35,960 bases of DNA from a bacterium (GTDB lineage: Bacteria; Cyanobacteriota; Vampirovibrionia; Obscuribacterales; JAKAZS01): positions 1 through 35,960 of the forward strand of contig JAJYFO010000006.1 of NCBI GenBank assembly GCA_021785395.1. The letters are read 5' to 3'. Made by a program: the position numbers and the translations under genes. The number at the start of each line of letters is the position of its first letter. Within the stretch, counting starts at the first letter, position 1. The notes under the pieces were generated by a model. That model worked only from the letters and a program-made list of their open reading frames with translations, was not told the origin of the DNA and searched no databases. This document shows positions 7,736-32,899 of this stretch, one piece after another.

Positions 7736-7828
7736 TTAATTTAATTTAATCTTCGTAGTTCCAACACTGTAAAAGTCTTGCCAAATTGTGTATATATTGG
7801 TTAACGTCCAGCTTTGGTAAGCCTTCTC

Positions 7829-10732
7829 ATGAAACCCGAACTAGCCACAGATAAAATCGCTAAAACTCCAATTGCCCCAAAGCAATCTAAAAGCAATGGA
7901 TTAATCAGTGAGTTTGTAAAAAGTGCTGAATACACAGCCATTCAAGAACCTGTAAGCAGTTTAGCGCAAATAACCGACGCGCTTCATAATAGTTTCAGCA
8001 AGGATAAATGGCACAAAGACTTAAAATTTATGGACGCTCCAAAACCAGCCAAGTTTGGCAGTCTAGACTGGGCGGCGCAAAACGTAGGGTCAGCAGTAGG
8101 AATCATAGCCCCGTTTATGCTAGCCCAAGGCGGCGTTTCTATGAGCCTTGATAGACTGGGTGTTAGCGAAGCCAGCCAAAGCCTTTTAACTAAAAGTGCC
8201 CTAAGCTTAGACATCCGCAATTCAGCTTTGGCTGGAGCCACCTACGGAGCTTTATTTACCCCTGTAGATTTAAAACAACACGATTTTTTGACCGGCAAAA
8301 TAGAAAACAGTCTAAGTAATGCCTTGACTTTTGGTACGCTTACAGCTGGGTCAATAGGTGTAGCTTCGTTAGGAGAATCTGGCCTAGTTGACAACTTAGG
8401 AGCCAAATCACTTTTAACCAATAAAATCTTTACAGGTGCAACGGCTGGACTTCCGGCTGGTTTTGTAGCGGCCGAATTTAATTCATTGGTTAATAATGGC
8501 AAACTGGCGTCTAAGCAAGAAATTGAACAGTCGCTAGCTGGCATGGCCTTAATAGGCGGTGTATTCGGGGCAAAATCGCAGTTAACCGATAACATTCAAT
8601 CGATTCATATTATCAATCCCAAGCTGGCCAATATAAGTGAAACGAAAATAGAAGCAATTAGGCCTGACCCAAGCCAACCTAGCCCAGAAGCTAACAATAG
8701 GGTTGGTGTCGATTTCAAACCAGCTGATAATCTTGCCGAATCGAAAATAGCTGCCGATTTGGGCGGTTTGCCAAATGACGGCACGGCCATAAGGATAGAC
8801 TTAGACCCAAGCAATTACGAAGCCTTTAAGACTGGTATTACTAAGCTAGGCAAAGCCGTACAATCTTTGCAGTCACCCGATTTAAGCACACGCTTACAAG
8901 CCCGTAACGATTTTATAAATTTTGCCCTATCGCCGGAAGGCCAATCGGTTAAACTAAACTTAATACCGGTAGCCAAAAATCTGGGCAGTTACGCGACCAA
9001 TTTAGTGTTGGATGGCTATAGTGACAAACCAAGCCAAATAAAGATTCAATTACCGCTGCCCGAATTAAAAGCTGGCAATGCCATAGCCTTTGCCCAAGAG
9101 TCGACAAAACTCACTAATAGTTTTAACGATTTTCAAAGTATTGCCGACAGGTTAACGCTAGCCTCAAGCAATGAAAGGCCAGACATTTTAAATGAACTAA
9201 AACAATTTTTAGACCAAAACCCTAACCTTCACGATACCGTAAAATCTTTTGCCAGTCAAAAACGCTCATCAACACTAGCTTTTTCCGTTGACGATTATTT
9301 TAAAGACAATCAAGACCATGTAAGCTTAGCCAATGACTATCATTCAACTTTAAAACCAAGTTCACCAGTGTTTGAAAAAATCAAGGCGGCTCTAGCTGGG
9401 CAATCTATACTAATAGCCGGCAACATAAAGGCAGACCAAGCCATATCTGGGTCTAGCCATGTTTTAGACTTATCGCAATTACACAGCCATGAATTGGACC
9501 AAGTCAAATCAGAAATAGCCAAAAGAAGCAGCGATCTAACATCTAGCGATAAAGCCACCCAAATCAAGTCAGCTCGGTTTTTAACGCAATTCATTGGCGG
9601 CATGGACGTCAATCAATTTAAAGACTGGTATAATGCCACCACTAAAAACCTTCTACAGATGAATTTACCGATGGGGAGCGTTTTAGTAAGACCAGAAATA
9701 AACGAAGCTATAAACGACCAAGATCCTGGCAAAACAATTGATCCAAGCCTAATACAAGCGTATTTAAGTGGCCATAAAATAATCAATACCAAAATTAAAT
9801 CACCCGAGATAACTGAATATTTTGATAACAGCAAGCAAGATTCTAATTTACCCAATTGGTTTAGACAAATTATGGAAAACAATGATACCAAAACAAATAG
9901 CGAATCTAATAATATATCAGCCATACTACCAGACAAATTAGCCAAACTGGCTAATATTCTTGATTCATTTAAGGGAAATAATCAGACTATCAATTCAATA
10001 TTATCGCTAGATAACATTGATGGCAAAGCTGTCGATGAAATGTTCTTTAAACTAGGTAATCCTAAAACGGGTCAGAATTATTTCGACCTCATCAAATCGA
10101 TAACCGAACAACCGATTGACCCACAGTCTTTCAGGCTATTTACCAAAGCTTTGTCAGACTACAACCCTAACGAAAGAAACAATGTTAATTATAAAAGTCA
10201 TAACGAACATATTGCTACAATAGTATTTCACAAACTAGCTAGTGATACCAATATGTCCGAAAGTCAAATTGCCGATGGCGAATTAGCTATTCACAACATT
10301 ATATCTCCACCACCTAGATTCTTTAAGCCCAACAGCAATTACGCAAAACCACCAAGAATAGATAGCCGCTACGGAGCTGGTAAAAATAACGCAGCCGCCA
10401 AAGGCGTCGATAATGATACAGAAAATAGTTCTATACCCGAAAGCGCCGATTCAAAAACCAAGAAAGATAACCAAACGGTTGTAAGTAAGGATGGGAATAC
10501 TCTACCTAAAACAAAACTACCGTCTAATCAAAGTGGAAAAGCGTTAACTAGTGATACAAAAATTTCACCTATTGACAAAATCAAAGCAACCACCGGTCAA
10601 ACTACTACTATAACGCCAGACCAATTTGACCGTGATTTTTCAGGTAAAGAAGACCGCTCTAGTAAAAGAATGGCTGGTCGAGAAAAGGATAGACAGCGAG
10701 AAAAAAACCGCGATAGGCGGTTTGAAGATTAA
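7829..10732 (+). CDS. Large uncharacterised protein (~967 aa) with Gly/Ala-rich hydrophobic segments and a charged C-terminus
   Basis: Single long ORF. The track starts at TTG 7814, but ATG 7829 (MKPELATDKIAKTP) is more likely. C-terminus RSSKRMAGREKDRQREKNRDRRFED. Confidence 0.8.
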   Translation: MKPELATDKIAKTPIAPKQSKSNGLISEFVKSAEYTAIQEPVSSLAQITDALHNSFSKDKWHKDLKFMDAPKPAKFGSLDWAAQNVGSAVGIIAPFMLAQGGVSMSLDRLGVSEASQSLLTKSALSLDIRNSALAGATYGALFTPVDLKQHDFLTGKIENSLSNALTFGTLTAGSIGVASLGESGLVDNLGAKSLLTNKIFTGATAGLPAGFVAAEFNSLVNNGKLASKQEIEQSLAGMALIGGVFGAKSQLTDNIQSIHIINPKLANISETKIEAIRPDPSQPSPEANNRVGVDFKPADNLAESKIAADLGGLPNDGTAIRIDLDPSNYEAFKTGITKLGKAVQSLQSPDLSTRLQARNDFINFALSPEGQSVKLNLIPVAKNLGSYATNLVLDGYSDKPSQIKIQLPLPELKAGNAIAFAQESTKLTNSFNDFQSIADRLTLASSNERPDILNELKQFLDQNPNLHDTVKSFASQKRSSTLAFSVDDYFKDNQDHVSLANDYHSTLKPSSPVFEKIKAALAGQSILIAGNIKADQAISGSSHVLDLSQLHSHELDQVKSEIAKRSSDLTSSDKATQIKSARFLTQFIGGMDVNQFKDWYNATTKNLLQMNLPMGSVLVRPEINEAINDQDPGKTIDPSLIQAYLSGHKIINTKIKSPEITEYFDNSKQDSNLPNWFRQIMENNDTKTNSESNNISAILPDKLAKLANILDSFKGNNQTINSILSLDNIDGKAVDEMFFKLGNPKTGQNYFDLIKSITEQPIDPQSFRLFTKALSDYNPNERNNVNYKSHNEHIATIVFHKLASDTNMSESQIADGELAIHNIISPPPRFFKPNSNYAKPPRIDSRYGAGKNNAAAKGVDNDTENSSIPESADSKTKKDNQTVVSKDGNTLPKTKLPSNQSGKALTSDTKISPIDKIKATTGQTTTITPDQFDRDFSGKEDRSSKRMAGREKDRQREKNRDRRFED

Positions 10733-10987: not shown

Positions 10988-13900
10988 ATGCTAGCAAGAA
11001 TCGGATTTATAACCAGGTTATTATCTTTAAACAATAGTACTAGTGTCAAAACAGAATTTGGCAATTCGGCTTTTAAAATAAAATCCACACACTCCAATAA
11101 TTTCATATGTCTAACATCACAGAGTAAGTCAATGGCTAAAAAATTTAGCTGCTCTATGTTAGCTTTTATGCTTACGTTAACGCTGTCGGCCAACGTACTA
11201 GCCAATGATTTAGCCAGTGGCTCTAGCAGAATGACCACACCAGGTCATAACGAAGGGATTTCCTTTAGCGATACCAGCCAATCATTACTAGCCTCTATAC
11301 ACCCCGAAGTTGCCAATCCAGGCCAATACATTAACCAAATTTTATCTAGCGTCATCAATCCGTATATAAATGAGAATTTAAATAGCTTAGCTCACGTCGT
11401 TGATATTGGACACTTAAGCCACGCTATCGACATTCAGCTAGCCAGCCACGAACTGGCTGTTACTAGCAACCAGACGCTTACCCAGGCTGAAGCCATTGCC
11501 GTAAACCAAGTCTTAAGCTTACAGCACCAGTCTTTGGTACTCAATAATTTTGGCCAGGCTATAGGTGGCAGTTTAAACGCAAATTCACTGCCCAATTCGA
11601 CCGTTAGTCTTTTATTGCCATCTGGAGTGACGCTTATTGACAACAGCGATAAATTGGTTTTAAATGGTAACTTGGCCAATTATGGCGATATTATATTCGC
11701 TGGCACAGGCAATATCCAAGCCAACATGATTTTAAACGATGGATTAATTAGCGCACCTAGCAATTTAGGACTGGATACTGGTGTTTTAATAAATAACGGC
11801 GGAATTTATGCTGTTCAAAACATAAACATAAACGCGCCTATCATATTTAACTCGCAAACAATAGAATCAGCCAATGGTAACGTCAACATATTCAATACTG
11901 GCTCGATCGATATAACCGGCACTTCTAATAGTATTTTAGAGGCTGTTAACGGAAGTATCAATATCAACGAAACGTCAGAAGCGATAAATCAAGGAATTAA
12001 TTTAGCCTACCAGAATTATTTGAGCCAGGAATTGAACCTAAATACACCTAATGGCTACGTTCAAGGAGCCACCGATAACGTAAGCGGTATAATTAATATA
12101 AACGCCAACTTGGCCCATTTAGCCACAGCTTCTAGCGATATGCTATTGGGTAACGATGTTGTTAAAGGTGACCCAACATACGTTAATACAGGTGGCAGTA
12201 TAAGCTTAAACGGAGCCGTTTCAACCTCGGGAGCCAATCTAGCAATTATTGCTAGCAACAGCATTATCGTAAACGTTGGCAGCAGTGGCTCGATAACAAC
12301 CGGTGGCGGTAACTTGACGATGATAGCTGGGCTAGGCAGTAATATATCTTCGACCGGCAACACCAATTCATCGACTATTCCTAATGGAGCTACAGCTGCT
12401 ATAAATAGTGTAACGGTAACGCTAGGAGCTAGCTCAGGTAACAGTGGTGGCAATATTGACCTGGTTACTAATAATACGTTAGCCTCTGGGTCAGCTGTAA
12501 TAAACACGTCGAATACTACCGGCAATGGCGGCAATGTAACCTTATTGGCTATAGCCAGTGGCAGTACTGGAGGCGAAATTTTAACCAGTAATTCGTCAAC
12601 GAGTTATTCTATTAACGCGACTTCAACTGATGCAGCTACAGGAATAAGTGGTGGCACTATTTTAATTCTAGCTGACGCTAGTCCCAGTACTGCGACAAAT
12701 ACGATTGTGCTAGGCAATATTGAAACCAATGGCGGGGTTGGAACCACCGCGTCAGCTGGGTCAGTAAATATCTATACCCAAAATGCCGTAAGCAATTCGG
12801 TGGTTTTATCCAACGCTGGCAGTATTACTACTGGGTATATAACCAATAACGGCTCTAATATAGCCAATGCTGGTATTAGTGTTGGCCAGATAACAACTTC
12901 TGGAAATAATGGATCAAGCACTAATGTTCAAAATGCCGCTGGTGAAAATGGCGGTAATGCCGGAAACATAAATATTCAAGCTGGCGGTAGTATTAGTGTT
13001 GCTAACGTAACCAGTATCGGTGGCGTTGGCGGTAATGGTGGGGCTAGCGGTAGCGGTGGAGCTGGTGGTAATGGTGGTAGTCTAAGTGTTTCAAGCTCAT
13101 CCGGCAATGTGAATATATCCGGCAGTGTTGAAGCTTACGGTGGTATTGGTGGCAATGGCGGAGCTGCCAGTAGTGGCACAGCTGGAGGAACTGGCGGCAC
13201 CGGTGGCCATGGTGGCAACGTAAATATTACAAGCTCAAGTGGCAGTCTAAGTGTAACCGGTAGTATCTATGCCTACGGTAACAACGGCGGCTTAGGCGGA
13301 GCTCCCGGCGGAGCTGGTAGCGGCGTTCAAGGCGGAGCTGGTGGTAATGGCGGTGACGGCGGTAACATAACTCTAAACACTAGTACAGGCAATATAAGTA
13401 TTGCCGATTTGTGGTCCTATGGCGGTAGTGGCACGGGTTTATTTTCTAATTATGGTGCCAACGCTGGCAACGGCGGATCAGCTGGTAGTATTACGATCGC
13501 AACTACAAGCGGTAACATCTCCACCGGCAGTGGAATTAGTGCTTCTGGTGGCAACGGCGGCAGCCCTGGAGCTACCGGTGGCTACGGTGGCGCTGGCGGT
13601 AATGGCGGCAACGGTAACAATATCAGCATTTCGACTAACACCGGCAGTATTTCGTTACCAGCAGTCTTGAATACTAATGGTGGTAACGGTGGCGGCGGTG
13701 GTGGTGGAATGGGCAGTGGTGGCGGCGGCGGTGGAAGCGGTGGCAACGCTGGCGACATAAACATAAGCACCAATAGCACTTCTTTAACCCTATCTAATGA
13801 TATAATGGCTAGTGGCGGTTCTGGCGGCGGCGGTGGCGGTGGCGGTGGCTATAATCCAGCCCTTGGTGGCAATGGGGGTAATGCCGGTAAAATCGTCGTG

Positions 13901-16555
13901 ACATCGTCAAATAGTCTAGATATTACATTTTCTGGTTATGTGGTAGCTTTAGCCGGTGGCGCTGGTGGTGATGGCGGACTAAATGGTAGCGCCAGCAACG
14001 CAGTTGGCGGTAGTGGCGGATTGGTTGGCTTTTGCGGCGGCGGCGGCGGTGGCGCTGGCGGTGGTGGCGGGTCTAGTAGCCCAAGTGTGGGTGGCAGTGG
14101 CGGCAACGGCTCAGATTCAGCCCCAGGTAGCGGTGGCTTGGCCAACTCACCGCCTGGCAATGGCAGCAACGGGGCTGCCGGGTCAGCTCCTGGAACTGGA
14201 CCAAACGACGTAAACGGTAATATTTACGACGGTAGTATTCAGGTGACTTCTAACGGTGGTTCGATTAGCATCAATGGCAGCAGTTTTCAGGCCGGCCAAA
14301 TCAACGTATCGACCAATGGCGCTGGCGGAATAGCCGTTAACACGGCTATGGGTATAGACGTAGCGCAAGCCACCCAAACAGTTAACCAGTACCATGTGGG
14401 TTTTGCAATTGGCAACGTAACCCTGGACGCAGCCGGAACCGGTTATATTACGACGAACTCAAGTGGTCTAATTTCAGCCAATAACCTTAATGTAAATAGT
14501 ACCGGTGGTGAAATTGGCTATGGTGTTGGCGGGGCTTCACCGTTAAATATCGACGCCAATAACTTAACTTTTACAGCCGGTTTATCGGTAGGTATACTGA
14601 ATAGTAGCGGCAACTTAAACGTTAATACATCCCAATCTGGTGCTAACCTCTACATTGAATCAGACGGAAATATAATGGCCAGTGGTTCTATTACAGCCCC
14701 AGTTCTCGGTCTTTATTCGTTTGCTGGCAGCACAGGCATTGGAACAGCCAACAATATAATTCAAGTCGACGCCCATAACCTGGGGTTAGAAAGTTATGGG
14801 TCTAACTCAAGCGTATACGTCAACGATACGAATAGTAGCAATACTATACTGCAGGCTAGCCAGGCTCGGTATATATTCAAACTCGATACAGCTGGACCTT
14901 TGTCTATTTTCGCTCAAATATACCAAAATGGGGTAGTTTCAGCCGGAACCATAAGCTCGCAGATAATCGCGATTCAAACATTTGGTGGATACGGCATATA
15001 TAACGACGCTAATATCCAGTCCAACGATTTTATCTTTTTGACAGCTTCGGGAAATGGTTATATAGCCGAGCCCAGTTCGCAAGCCTTGATGATGGCTCCT
15101 AATATTGCCTTAGTTAGTGGTGGTGGAGCCATCGGAGCTGGCGGACGACTGCTTTTAAATAGCCAAAATGTAGCTGCCTCTACCCAAGGGTATAATAATT
15201 TTGTCAATATATACGACGAAGCTAGTAATTCAGGTATTGTGGGCGGTCAAAGTGGGTCTTACTTTACTTTTAACACCAACGGTAACGTCAACATAACCGG
15301 CTCAATAGCTACTGGGGCTGGAACCAACACTAACGGTGGAGCTATTAATATATCAGCCAACGGAAACTTAAATATGGGTTATAGCGGTTCAAAAATTGGT
15401 TTATACACCAATAACGGTCCGATTGTATTACAGAATAACGATACCACGTCTGGGTCTATAAATATTGCCTCAAACACTACGTTTTACACCAATACAGCTG
15501 TTGGCGTCCCTGGTTACATCGTCGTTAATGTTGGCAGTTATAACCAAACTAATACTAGCAATCCTAACCCAAACTATATAACGGTTGAAACGTCTGGCGG
15601 CGCCAATGTTTATTTTGGCACCAATGGCATTACGGCGCAGGCTCCTGGCAACGTAATTGATGCCAAAGGGCAAAGTATTGTCTTTAATACTTCTAACCTT
15701 AGCGCCAATTCTATTACATTAGGCGGAAATGTTAGTATTACAGCGGATCCACCTGTTTTAGCAACCAGTAGCGTTAATAATTTATCCAATACCAATTTGG
15801 TGTCAGTAATAAATAATTCTTCGCCTAGTCTTTTAAATACTTCCCTGTATTCGCAAGTATTTAGTCAAATGAATTTGTTGGATAACCAAGAAGCAGGCAA
15901 CTTAAACCTTTACAGTAGTGCCATCAAGCTAAATTCATTTACTGGTCAAGTAAATAATTTATCCAACAGCGATTCAACCAATAAGCAAACTGACAATTTA
16001 ATAATACCGATAAGCTTCAGTAACAATTTTTGTTCAAGCAATGGTATCAATTCAGTTATTGTAGCTAAAAATGATATGAAAATCACTTTGGGTTATTTAA
16101 ATAAAATCAGCCTAGACCTTAAGCGCGGCAGTGTAGTTCTAGTTGTAAGCCAGGGTAAAACTGCTAGTATTTATAACTTGCACGACAACTCTTGCGGTAG
16201 CGTTAAAGTAAATCTAGCCGGTAGCCAAATAAAACTAGCTCCGGGTCGTCAGGTAAGTATTTTGGCGTCAAGTAAAATAGTTGATTTTGGCAACGTCAAC
16301 CAGTTGCCTTGTGTTGGTTATCGCGATTTAAAAACTAGCTTTGTTAATGGTTACGCAACTTATATTTCTGATTTTTCGATACCAAGTGTCATTAATTCTG
16401 TAAATTCATTAAAAACTATGTTTAGAAGCCAAGACCGCTATACTAAAAATCTAGCCAATAAACTAGTAAAAACAAGCGTTGTAATAATGCAAAGCACAAG
16501 TAATAAAGGTAATTATCAGCAAATAATACAACCCAAATTAACAGCTCTAAAATAA
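10988..16555 (+). CDS. Giant secreted filamentous-haemagglutinin-like / PGRS-like beta-repeat protein, 1855 aa
   Basis: Hydrophobic signal region MAKKFSCSMLAFMLTLTLSANVLA preceded by a 48-aa extension; many short beta-repeats (SGNVNIS, GGNITL); GGNGG-rich centre; FecR-like C-terminal LKRGSVVLVVSQGKTASIYNL...IKLAPGRQVSIL. Confidence 0.85.
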   Translation: MLARIGFITRLLSLNNSTSVKTEFGNSAFKIKSTHSNNFICLTSQSKSMAKKFSCSMLAFMLTLTLSANVLANDLASGSSRMTTPGHNEGISFSDTSQSLLASIHPEVANPGQYINQILSSVINPYINENLNSLAHVVDIGHLSHAIDIQLASHELAVTSNQTLTQAEAIAVNQVLSLQHQSLVLNNFGQAIGGSLNANSLPNSTVSLLLPSGVTLIDNSDKLVLNGNLANYGDIIFAGTGNIQANMILNDGLISAPSNLGLDTGVLINNGGIYAVQNININAPIIFNSQTIESANGNVNIFNTGSIDITGTSNSILEAVNGSININETSEAINQGINLAYQNYLSQELNLNTPNGYVQGATDNVSGIININANLAHLATASSDMLLGNDVVKGDPTYVNTGGSISLNGAVSTSGANLAIIASNSIIVNVGSSGSITTGGGNLTMIAGLGSNISSTGNTNSSTIPNGATAAINSVTVTLGASSGNSGGNIDLVTNNTLASGSAVINTSNTTGNGGNVTLLAIASGSTGGEILTSNSSTSYSINATSTDAATGISGGTILILADASPSTATNTIVLGNIETNGGVGTTASAGSVNIYTQNAVSNSVVLSNAGSITTGYITNNGSNIANAGISVGQITTSGNNGSSTNVQNAAGENGGNAGNINIQAGGSISVANVTSIGGVGGNGGASGSGGAGGNGGSLSVSSSSGNVNISGSVEAYGGIGGNGGAASSGTAGGTGGTGGHGGNVNITSSSGSLSVTGSIYAYGNNGGLGGAPGGAGSGVQGGAGGNGGDGGNITLNTSTGNISIADLWSYGGSGTGLFSNYGANAGNGGSAGSITIATTSGNISTGSGISASGGNGGSPGATGGYGGAGGNGGNGNNISISTNTGSISLPAVLNTNGGNGGGGGGGMGSGGGGGGSGGNAGDINISTNSTSLTLSNDIMASGGSGGGGGGGGGYNPALGGNGGNAGKIVVTSSNSLDITFSGYVVALAGGAGGDGGLNGSASNAVGGSGGLVGFCGGGGGGAGGGGGSSSPSVGGSGGNGSDSAPGSGGLANSPPGNGSNGAAGSAPGTGPNDVNGNIYDGSIQVTSNGGSISINGSSFQAGQINVSTNGAGGIAVNTAMGIDVAQATQTVNQYHVGFAIGNVTLDAAGTGYITTNSSGLISANNLNVNSTGGEIGYGVGGASPLNIDANNLTFTAGLSVGILNSSGNLNVNTSQSGANLYIESDGNIMASGSITAPVLGLYSFAGSTGIGTANNIIQVDAHNLGLESYGSNSSVYVNDTNSSNTILQASQARYIFKLDTAGPLSIFAQIYQNGVVSAGTISSQIIAIQTFGGYGIYNDANIQSNDFIFLTASGNGYIAEPSSQALMMAPNIALVSGGGAIGAGGRLLLNSQNVAASTQGYNNFVNIYDEASNSGIVGGQSGSYFTFNTNGNVNITGSIATGAGTNTNGGAINISANGNLNMGYSGSKIGLYTNNGPIVLQNNDTTSGSINIASNTTFYTNTAVGVPGYIVVNVGSYNQTNTSNPNPNYITVETSGGANVYFGTNGITAQAPGNVIDAKGQSIVFNTSNLSANSITLGGNVSITADPPVLATSSVNNLSNTNLVSVINNSSPSLLNTSLYSQVFSQMNLLDNQEAGNLNLYSSAIKLNSFTGQVNNLSNSDSTNKQTDNLIIPISFSNNFCSSNGINSVIVAKNDMKITLGYLNKISLDLKRGSVVLVVSQGKTASIYNLHDNSCGSVKVNLAGSQIKLAPGRQVSILASSKIVDFGNVNQLPCVGYRDLKTSFVNGYATYISDFSIPSVINSVNSLKTMFRSQDRYTKNLANKLVKTSVVIMQSTSNKGNYQQIIQPKLTALK
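12965..14215 (+). repeat. Protein-coding tandem repeat: ~45-aa modules of beta-strand plus poly-Gly loop
   Basis: Module starts read from in-frame codons: 12965, 13079, 13217, 13364, 13487, 13619, 13754, 13889. Each opens with [N/S/D]-[I/V/L]-x-[I/V] and ends in GGNGG/GGNAG. Confidence 0.8.
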
Positions 16556-28590: not shown

Positions 28591-28608
28591 ACGAACGAAC
28601 GAACGAAC
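28591..28608. repeat. Tetranucleotide microsatellite (ACGA)4AC in convergent intergenic gap
   Basis: acgaacgaacgaacgaac, abutting the TAG stop (28608-28610) of the minus-strand gene. Confidence 0.9.
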
Positions 28609-31556
28609 TAAAAAGGATTGCTTAAAGTCGTGTGTAAATTAGCCACAGCGTCTGATGGAACTTTAGCTTTTAATTCATTGGCAATGGCTATTATAGCTGG
28701 CAAATCAGGATTATTGGGGTCTAGCTGGGTAGCCAGTTTAATGCAGTCTAGAGCACCAGAATAACCTCTGGGGTTGCCGTTAGCGTCAGCGGTTTGGCGT
28801 GCTTCGTTGCTACCATATATAGCTAAGGCGGCCTCAGCGTCAGACCCATTATAGGCTTTGCCTATACCGTTATAGCCAATATCTTTAGCTGCTGCAGCTA
28901 ATTCAACAAGAGCTAAATCTCTGAATAACTTAGCCGACAGGGCTGGTTCTACATGGCCTAATTTAGCGATCCAGTTTTGATTTTTTTGAATTAATTTAGC
29001 GGCCTCGCCAGGATGGAGGTAAGCCAAATTTTCTAATTTATTAAATATAGCGTTGACATCGTGTTTACCATTTATTTTGTTATTAATAATATCGGTAACG
29101 TTGCTCTCTTCTTTAGCTAAGCCGTTGATTTCAGATTGTGTTACGACCTTGCCGTCGACTGTCTGACCTAGTTCAAGTTTAGCCACCTTTTGGGCTGTCT
29201 GTAATTTGTTCTGCGCTAGCATTAAATACCGCATGGCTCGGCCACCAAAATCTAAGTTATAGCCAGGCAGTAGATACTGCGGTGTTTTGGCACCAGGAAC
29301 AAGACTGCCGTGCTTTAATAAAGATTCACCGTAAGCCGCGTCGACAATACTTTGTTGTCTTAGTACATCAAGGTCATTCGACTGATTGGCGTTTAATTCT
29401 TGGACCTCAAGGTTTACAGCCGGTAAACTGGTATCACCTAAAGACTTAAAAGCGTTTATGCTATTTTGCATAGACGAATAAGTCCTATCAGCGGCATCGG
29501 TTTTTAGACTAGCGATGGCGTCGTTTTTCTGGCTGATTTGGCCATCACCTTCAATTAGATTATAAACGCGACCTATCGCCCAAGCGCCACCAACCAAACT
29601 GGCTCGAACCATATTGCTTTCAGTTGGGATTAAAAAGGCTGCTCCCATTAAAACCGAGTCTAAAGTCGTCGGTCTAAGCAGTTTAGAAAATTCCTGTTGC
29701 GAACTTTTTGGCAACAGTTTATCAGCTATAATACTGCCAGCTATACCAGCGCCAGCTAGAGTAATACGGCTGCCCCAGGTTGGTCCGGCAAAGGCAGCCG
29801 GGAGCAACAGACCATTATAAAGAGCACTGGCCTCTTGATGGTCTTTATGAAATACGAGTCTATCGATGTAATCATCGGCTGTCATAGCCAAGCCAGCAAA
29901 AGCCGCTCCTTTAATAAAATTACCAGCCAGACCCTTAATTGATGAAGCGCCCAAAAAGCTGGTCGAGTCTTTAAAGCCACCAGCTAAACTGTCAGCTTCA
30001 ACTTTAAGGTCAACACGTGACTTTAAGGCGGCCAACTCATCTTTGGTGAACATATCAGGTACGAGTTTACTGGAATCATTGATCAACTTAAGCTGTTTAG
30101 CTGCACTATCAGCGTTGGTAAAATTCATGTCATTTAACAAGGTTAACTTAGTATCTAACAAGTCAACCCTGGCAGCCTGTTCAGCTGTCAATTCATCGGG
30201 GCTAATCTGTTTAAGATTTAAAATCTCATTATTGGTACCAGCCTTTATATTATTGATGGTTTTATCAAGTTCAGCTATCTTAGACGTAACAGTCGTAAAT
30301 TTAGCCTTGGTAAATACTTTGGGGTTGAGTTTTTCTTGCACGTAGCTAGCAGCGTCATTTACCTTGCCACCTTCTTTAGTGTGGTTTACAGTAAAATCGA
30401 CGACTTTATTAAGCGTCCAGGGCAATGGGCCAGCCCCTAAAACACCGCCAACGCCACCAGCGAACAGATTACCGGCATAACTTGTTCGTGGTACCAATGA
30501 TGCATTTAATAAAGCGTTGGCAACGCTAAACTGCTTCTGTTGAGCCTGGTTTGATCCAGAATCGGCCGTATGTGGCTGGGGCGCGCTCCAACCAGGTGAC
30601 GATATCCTTGGTTTCCAGGCTGGTCCGTTACTGCTATCACCATTTTGATTAGGATTATAGGGTGCCGCTGCTTGACTGCCGTCACCACCTTGTGGTATTA
30701 CAGAGTTAGCAGGATTATTAGACGAACTAGAAGTTCCAGCAGATGCTGCCCCACTTTTATGAAAAAAGCCAGGCGCTACTTGTCCATAATTACCTCGCCA
30801 CGAGGCTCCAGACGGGTCTATTATGCCCTGGTTGTAACGGTTAAAACCGTTATTAGGCGGAACCGTTTGATTACTACCAGTTGTATTATCACCAGCAGAG
30901 ACAACAGGTTTATTAAAAAAGCCAGGTGCCACCTGACCATAATTATTTCGCCACGAAGCTCCAGATGGGTCTATGACGCCAGTATTACCGTTATTACCGG
31001 AGTGTTCGCGCAAATAAGCACCAACATTGCCAGCTGGAGCAATTGGCGCTGATACTGGCGCAACCGATGCTGGCGGTGAAACGGTAGCATCTGGTGCTGA
31101 TACTGGCGCAACCGACGCTGGCGACACGGGAGCATCGGTTGGAGTAACTGGAGCGACCGACGCAACTGGCGATACGGGAACCTCGGGAGTAACTGGAGCT
31201 GCTGCTGACGATGCTGGAGCGACTGGCGCCTCTGGAGTAACTGGAGCAACCGACGCAACTGGCGATACGGGAACCTCAAGGGTAACTGGAGCTGCTGCTG
31301 ACGATGCCGGCGCTTCTGGTGGGGTAACTGGAGCTGCTGGCGATACTGGAACCTCAGGATTAGCAGGTGCCGAAACATTGCCATCACCAACTGATTGGCT
31401 AGGTGTTTGGTTTGAGCTAGCATCATTACTACTTAAATTGCTGGCACTAGATAACGAATATAATTCTTGAGCGACTTTGGCGCTGGGCTTAGTATTTTTT
31501 TCCACCGTATATTTTACGTTATTAAAGTATAACCATTCTTCCATCGACTCTTTCAT
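28608..31556 (-). CDS. Large uncharacterised protein (982 aa): P/A/V-rich repeat region, IDPSGASWR repeats, Gly/Ala-rich hydrophobic core, TPR-like C-terminus
   Basis: Single complete ORF; core [40 protein letters not shown] shared with 31682..32899; C-terminal [24 protein letters not shown] resembles a TPR. Confidence 0.82.
30756..30980 (-). repeat. Two copies of a 24-aa motif G[VI]IDPSGASWR[NG][10 protein letters not shown][NH]K, spaced 153 bp
   Basis: Copies at 30909-30980 and 30756-30827, each 72 nt. Confidence 0.92.
31144..31320 (-). repeat. Tandem repeat with 93-bp (31-aa) period encoding P/A/V-rich sequence
   Basis: Copy 1 begins gtaactggagcgaccgacgcaactggcgatacgggaacctc at 31144; copy 2 begins gtaactggagcaaccgacgcaactggcgatacgggaacctc at 31237; shorter degenerate units flank them. 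Confidence 0.88.
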
Positions 31557-31681
31557 AAATTAAAATTACACTCCAAAGAATTTGTAAAATATAGAATTTA
31601 AAATTATTATAATTATTTTGTAATTTAAGTGAATGCGTAAAAATACTAATAAATTAAAAAATTAATCTCAAAAGAATATTT

Positions 31682-32899
31682 TTAGCGGTCGAAAACATAG
31701 TGATTCATATTACCCAATAACCAAGCACCGGTAATATAGCTCAACCGCACGCCGACACTTTCAGCTGGCAACATCATAGCTGCCCCAACGAGTAAAGACG
31801 AACACACCGTAGGTTTAAAAAATCTTGAATACTGCGGAACTTCTGACCCTTGCGGCAATATGTGTTCCAAACCGATACTGGATACAGACCCGACTAAACC
31901 CCAGGTTACTAAACTCGACATATTGGGCGCTGACATTGCAATAGGCAAGAATAGACCATTAAACAGCCAGTTAGCGTCGTGCTGGTTTTTATGCGTCAAC
32001 AACCTGTCTAGATAATCATTGGCCGAAATGGCCAGACCAGCAATAGCAGCACCTTTGATAAACTCACCAGCAAGCTCAGGGACGCTTGAAACGCCAAAAA
32101 TATCGCTATGATTACTTATAAAATCATTGGGTTTCACTAGTTGCGGTGAATTTAACCAATCGTCGAGTTTACTGCCAAAATCGTTATTAAAGTAGTGTTT
32201 AAAGGAAAAGAATGAATCTTCAACGTTAGCCACTTTACCATCTTTCAAGCCAGCGGCAAAACGGCTTGAATATTGCTTAAAGTCATCCAAAACGTCGCCT
32301 TTAGTATCCAAACTTCCATCGGTTCTGGTTTGGGTCTGTGGCTCAGGCCTAGATTTACTATGGGTAAAATTTTCAAATGTACTTTTTCCATCAGTATATA
32401 ACTTACCAATCTTAGAATTATCGCCTAATTGGCTAAGTTTTTTGTCGATTACCTTGCCAACGTAGGGAATCGGGCCACCGCCCAATAAACCACCGATTCC
32501 ACCATAAATTAATAACTTGGTGTAATCTATAGGTTGGTCTAGTCCGGTTGCACTATTGTTACTTTGACTTATATCGGCTTTATTACCAAGTTTACTGATA
32601 TTATTCCAGTCGATACTACCAGGATCCCATTGGCTATTATGCACGGGTTCGTGCGTAATATCGGTTGAATAACCGTTATTAGTAGAATTATTAAAAGTTG
32701 AAAAATTTGGCGTAACAGGTAATGTATCAGAGTTAGAATTGTTAGGGTTTAGGGCTCCGCCTTGAATAGACTTTTCATTACTAGAATAGCCTAAATTGCC
32801 TATACCCGACGAATTTAATTTATTTATTGTTTTAGTTAGTTGCTCGATAGACGAGTCGTTGCCAGTTAAGTTACTGAGATCTTGTTCTATTCCAGCCAT
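31682..32899 (-). CDS. Uncharacterised protein (405 aa), paralog of the core of 28608..31556
   Basis: GGIGGLLGGGPIPYVGKVID vs [61 protein letters not shown] vs [40 protein letters not shown]. Confidence 0.85.
   Translation of the reverse strand: MAGIEQDLSNLTGNDSSIEQLTKTINKLNSSGIGNLGYSSNEKSIQGGALNPNNSNSDTLPVTPNFSTFNNSTNNGYSTDITHEPVHNSQWDPGSIDWNNISKLGNKADISQSNNSATGLDQPIDYTKLLIYGGIGGLLGGGPIPYVGKVIDKKLSQLGDNSKIGKLYTDGKSTFENFTHSKSRPEPQTQTRTDGSLDTKGDVLDDFKQYSSRFAAGLKDGKVANVEDSFFSFKHYFNNDFGSKLDDWLNSPQLVKPNDFISNHSDIFGVSSVPELAGEFIKGAAIAGLAISANDYLDRLLTHKNQHDANWLFNGLFLPIAMSAPNMSSLVTWGLVGSVSSIGLEHILPQGSEVPQYSRFFKPTVCSSLLVGAAMMLPAESVGVRLSYITGAWLLGNMNHYVFDR

Follow-up and report, generated by a model that had tools for sequence, protein, structure and literature searches.

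The question raised by two neighbouring minus-strand genes in contig JAJYFO010000006.1, from a bacterium of the order Obscuribacterales (Vampirovibrionia, Cyanobacteriota), is whether their products of 982 and 405 amino acids represent a genuine protein family and, if so, what such a family might do. The window analysed here is the whole contig (35,960 nucleotides) of a 2.83 Mb draft genome. A sequence-only reading of this window had described the two genes as domain-shuffled paralogs with a shared hydrophobic core, which was suggested to insert into or remodel membranes.

A shared core in two proteins of different length

Both open reading frames are present with the positions and lengths proposed in that reading, and 125 bp lie between them. 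The features of the pair are listed below (G001 and G002 are genomes of the same genus; A1, A6 and A7 are family alignments).

28608..31556, minus strand: large paralog, 982 aa (ORF; the G001 orthologue is 68% identical over 580 aa; dN/dS about 0.11)
30522..31556, minus strand: N-terminus of the large paralog, residues 1-345, P/A/V/S/N-rich and probably disordered (composition; tandem repeat)
30925..30953, minus strand: WRxxYGQVAP motif of the large paralog, copy 1 (motif search)
30772..30800, minus strand: WRxxYGQVAP motif of the large paralog, copy 2 (motif search)
30417..30461, minus strand: Gly motif of the large paralog, residues 366-380 (sequence; GGxGGxLGGGPxP conserved in A1)
29985..30308, minus strand: long-helix (coil-like) segment of the large paralog, residues 417-524 (AlphaFold2 model, pLDDT about 78-93)
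29553..29963, minus strand: shared Gly/Ala hydrophobic core of the large paralog, residues 532-668, made up of a helix plus two hairpin units (BLASTP, A1 and A6, low-confidence model)
28629..29537, minus strand: C-terminal all-helical domain of the large paralog, residues 674-976, with conserved GxHD and AKLxRD (AlphaFold2, A7)
31682..32899, minus strand: short paralog, 405 aa, core without the C-terminal domain (ORF; the G001 and G002 orthologues are 53% identical)
32462..32506, minus strand: Gly motif YGGIGGLLGGGPIPY of the short paralog, residues 132-146 (sequence)
31694..32107, minus strand: shared core of the short paralog, residues 265-402 (BLASTP)

A BLASTP comparison of the two proteins yields 43% identity over 138 aa with an E-value of 6e-34. 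The similarity does not reflect low-complexity Gly/Ala sequence, a source of error that the sequence-only reading itself had raised, because the true pair scores 122 bits, compared to at most 30.8 bits when the short protein is block-shuffled 500 times with its local composition kept. Situated upstream of this alignment, the Gly motif is conserved in both paralogs and in the wider family (GGxGGxLGGGPxP); along with a segment that includes DYxDRLxxHK and a P[TA]ES motif, it belongs to the three originally quoted motifs, which are common to both proteins and follow the same order. This motif had been placed near the start, which is true of the shared region but not of the 982-aa protein. The P/A/V-rich repeat reported at the N-terminus of the large copy corresponds to a tandem repeat detected by TRF (31102-31292, period 45, 4.2 copies). 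Beyond the core, the 982-aa protein continues for about 310 aa with predicted helical structure; the 405-aa protein ends at the core, as originally noticed, and its orthologues in G001 and G002 stop at the same point. The gap between the two genes contains a promoter-like site (31606-31633, minus strand) with 10 of 12 consensus bases; across the region, sites of this kind exceed the number in shuffled sequences by only about one standard deviation.

A family confined to Obscuribacterales

No Pfam or NCBIfam model matches either window protein above the cut-off, the PDB contains no sequence match to the family, and no description of it was found in the titles and abstracts that literature searches listed, in agreement with the original assessment of the core as unrecognised. 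Comparison of 20 relatives with Pfam and NCBIfam gave only scattered matches, each in a single member. A profile that combines the core and the C-terminal domain matches 47 of the 53 genomes of the order (E up to 1e-5) and none of the 385 other genomes in a sample of the phylum (386 genomes, the window genome being the sole match). The profile of the core alone matches 39 of the 53 genomes (E up to 1e-3), with up to 12 copies; at E up to 0.01, a sample of the class yields no match among about 236 other genomes, and the highest copy number is 13. Thus, as far as the sampled genomes go, the family is specific to the order Obscuribacterales. The relatives identified by protein similarity come from metagenome-assembled genomes (MAGs) labelled Candidatus Melainabacteria, Candidatus Obscuribacterales or Cyanobacteria, apart from two that are labelled “Proteobacteria bacterium” (L106) and “uncultured bacterium” (L108). 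The window genus, with three genomes, constitutes family f1, beside which a larger family, f2, is present in the same order.

Hence the description of the locus as an undescribed gene pair falls short of what is found, namely an order-wide family with up to 13 copies per genome and far more members than two. Likewise, the DYxDRLxxHK segment, which had been called invariant, holds without change in the window pair alone and varies across the family (A1, A6). The outcome is a sound new family without an assigned function, not a demonstrated new system.

Modules and a family-specific motif

The proteins of this family consist of a low-complexity N-terminus with repeated WRxxYG motifs, the Gly motif, a long-helix segment and the Gly/Ala-rich helical-hairpin core, to which many members add a helical C-terminal domain of 300 aa. 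Among the 80 proteins collected, 38 score for both the core and the C-terminal domain, 33 for the core only (some of these entries are cut by contig ends), and 9 for the C-terminal domain only, where five proteins of 834-918 aa may hold a diverged core, leaving four of 375-488 aa as clear cases. The modular architecture suggested for the pair therefore extends to the family. In f1 (three genomes), several paralogs lack the C-terminus, and each genome has at most one large form. In a 455-aa protein (L062:9099-10466), a ChaN/Tiki-type domain (PF04187, E 1.9e-8) precedes half of the family core, which occupies the C-terminus. This fusion, seen in one relative only, is the point of contact with the ChaN/Tiki superfamily; in contrast, Pfam detects no PF04187 domain in either window protein.

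An AlphaFold2 model of the C-terminal domain alone is confident (pLDDT 90, pTM 0.88) and all helical apart from short strands; in a model of residues 345-982, the long-helix segment (417-524) and the C-terminal domain are confident and the core is poor (pLDDT mostly 38-55). The invariant columns of the C-terminal domain (A7) include the HD of GxHD and AKL-RD. This domain had been called TPR-like, and it does resemble TPR/alpha-solenoid scaffolds in being an all-helical array whose last conserved stretch reads like a TPR; the Foldseek list for it includes LGN, KLC1 and a designed helical repeat, with non-significant E-values of 0.03-0.3. However, the domain differs from such scaffolds in having short extended strands and in showing no significant structural match in the PDB (Foldseek; best E 0.029, TM 0.24), and no Pfam TPR profile matches the 982-aa protein (E up to 10) or 20 members of the family (E up to 0.1). 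What stands, then, is a helical model with a weak resemblance to TPRs and other helical repeats. At the start of one contig (L036:1-80, G001:C93), about 26 codons repeat a segment of the C-terminal domain, which is probably an assembly artefact at the contig end.

A comparison of the two hairpin units of the core by hhalign gives an E-value of 2e-4 and a probability of 46%, and the profile of unit 2 alone finds only a few extra copies, with none in shuffled sequences. The units look duplicated, and the repeat is tentative. Longer tandem arrays of hairpins, which visual inspection had suggested in L075 and L038, found no confirmation with the unit 2 profile.

The low-complexity N-terminus of the large form contains two copies of a WRxxYGQVAP-type motif. 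WRxxYG occurs in 19 of 61 family proteins, often in two or three copies each, compared to none of 363 other neighbouring ORFs (the single background match is an N-terminal fragment of the G001 large paralog and was counted as family). The stricter coding pattern WRxxYGxxAP is found at 16 sites in the 53 genomes of the order, 14 of these inside family genes by coordinates, and the reversed-pattern control at 4. The motif is almost exclusive to the family, and because it is kept in otherwise diverging sequence, it suggests a putative binding site.

Origin, selection and genomic context

In the tree of cores, which carries a long-branch warning elsewhere, the short protein groups with its orthologues from G001 and G002 as sister to the large f1 form (support 99/96), in line with the proposed tandem paralogy. 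This placement implies that the duplication predates the split of the three genomes; the 405-aa gene is an old tandem duplicate of the large gene that lost the C-terminus. The large and short copies are also neighbours in G001, another genome of the genus, with the large gene truncated there by contig ends; the G002 contig ends at the short copy, so that adjacency covers the window and G001. Two further short paralogs of the genus belong to a separate branch of the tree, with the orthologue sets C242 and C121 in G000, C101 and C29/C99 in G001, and C60 and C48 in G002, some of them cut by contig ends. Tandem copies are encoded elsewhere in the order as well (e.g., G024 C24; G017 C56; G020 C56; G030 C366 and C139; G042 C313). 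The dN/dS ratios, about 0.03-0.25 across comparisons with several dS values near saturation, indicate purifying selection: 0.13 for the short paralog (G001 versus G002), about 0.11 for the large paralog and 0.026 for the C-terminal domain (G011/G024).

In Obscuribacteraceae, the main copy has a dCTP deaminase gene on one side and a ComEC-like gene on the other, and ribonucleotide reductase is encoded upstream (neighbours identified by reading); this place is conserved in several genera. Given that the same gene order is absent from the window genome, it is taken as ancestral synteny of housekeeping genes, which provides no partner and no functional clue. A link to two-component genes, which the neighbour clusters made look possible, is not claimed because the cluster strings together dissimilar proteins and the link lacks a computed background.

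A patatin-like protein, identified by reading the motif GVGGV..GGSAGA, is encoded divergently next to a short core gene in two loci (L037:1954-3642, G000:C242; L058:6732-8393, G002:C48). By BLAST, it clusters with a 972-aa window protein (7814-10732) that has a hydrophobic N-terminal half, a charged C-terminus and no Pfam match. The window also encodes (10988-16555) an 1855-aa repetitive, Gly/Asn/Ser-rich, adhesin-like protein without a Pfam match.

Membrane association and possible functions

Our tentative preference, which we regard as possible rather than probable, is that these proteins are a cytoplasmic scaffold specific to Obscuribacterales, possibly peripheral to the membrane, that oligomerises and carries docking modules. 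Packing of the Gly/Ala hairpins against one another would yield homo- or hetero-oligomers, which might sit at the membrane's inner face. Partner proteins would dock on the WRxxYG motifs and on the C-terminal helical domain, and the short paralog, co-assembling with the large one, would serve as a subunit without the docking platform. The module counts, the confident C-terminal domain, the enrichment of WRxxYG, purifying selection, the paralogs of f1 that lack the C-terminus, the two hairpin units and the lack of a hydrophobic N-terminal signal in the sequences of the window proteins are all compatible with such a scaffold; the low-confidence core model, neighbours that give no partner, non-significant Foldseek matches and weak evidence of a hairpin repeat argue against it. 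What this reading adds to the domain layout, taxonomic range, motif and selection, we infer.

An alternative only slightly less likely, close to the original suggestion of membrane insertion, is that the hairpins of the core cross the inner membrane or dip into it, with the C-terminal helical domain in the cytoplasm. The Gly/Ala-rich helices are hydrophobic (their averaged hydropathy, taken over 15 residues, peaks at about 1.2-1.3), and the half-core of the L062 protein follows the ChaN/Tiki-type domain at the C-terminus, where an anchor would sit. However, on the Kyte-Doolittle scale, a simple one, 22 of 25 cores contain no 19-residue window reaching 1.6 (the window proteins peak at 1.31 for P0001 and 1.44 for P0002), the hydrophobic stretches are only about 12-16 residues long and are interrupted by proline and charged residues, and a charged ADDYIDRL-type segment terminates the first core helix. 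Membrane insertion is thus not established; the short core helices of low hydropathy argue against ordinary transmembrane helices, not against peripheral or re-entrant association.

A more elaborate and unlikely possibility is a self-assembling intracellular structure peculiar to the order, such as a membrane-associated coat, a microdomain or a condensate, in which core-only and core-plus-platform subunits would be mixed and clients would be recruited via WRxxYGQVAP.

Chlamydial Inc proteins insert into membranes by paired hydrophobic hairpins. By analogy, members of the present family could be exported or injected to insert into another membrane and act on other cells, which we consider improbable. 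Similarly to Inc proteins, they combine hydrophobic hairpins with helical segments, have undergone a lineage-restricted expansion (to 13 copies) and lack a classical signal; they also diverge fast and possess a disordered N-terminus. However, their helices are less hydrophobic than Inc hairpins, no known secretion genes were noticed beside members in the neighbourhoods read, and the main copy resides in conserved vertical synteny in several genera. A structural protein of a phage or mobile element, e.g., a tape measure or tail-associated protein, is hardly credible: several viral Foldseek matches are named tape measure proteins, but these have E-values above 0.03 and TM of about 0.1, PHROG matches are weak and limited to single members, the neighbours are housekeeping genes, and searches of viral contigs and phage records revealed no relative. 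A role in anti-phage defence was also rejected since P0001 has no PADLOC match, and a weak match of one other member to Cas8-type models (2e-4) was taken as chance.

Whether or not the scaffold reading holds, the family is large, absent from the family libraries searched and present in almost every genome sampled from this uncultured order of cyanobacterial relatives. The core, the confidently predicted C-terminal domain and the family-specific motif give experiments concrete starting points for studying cell biology that is peculiar to these non-photosynthetic bacteria.
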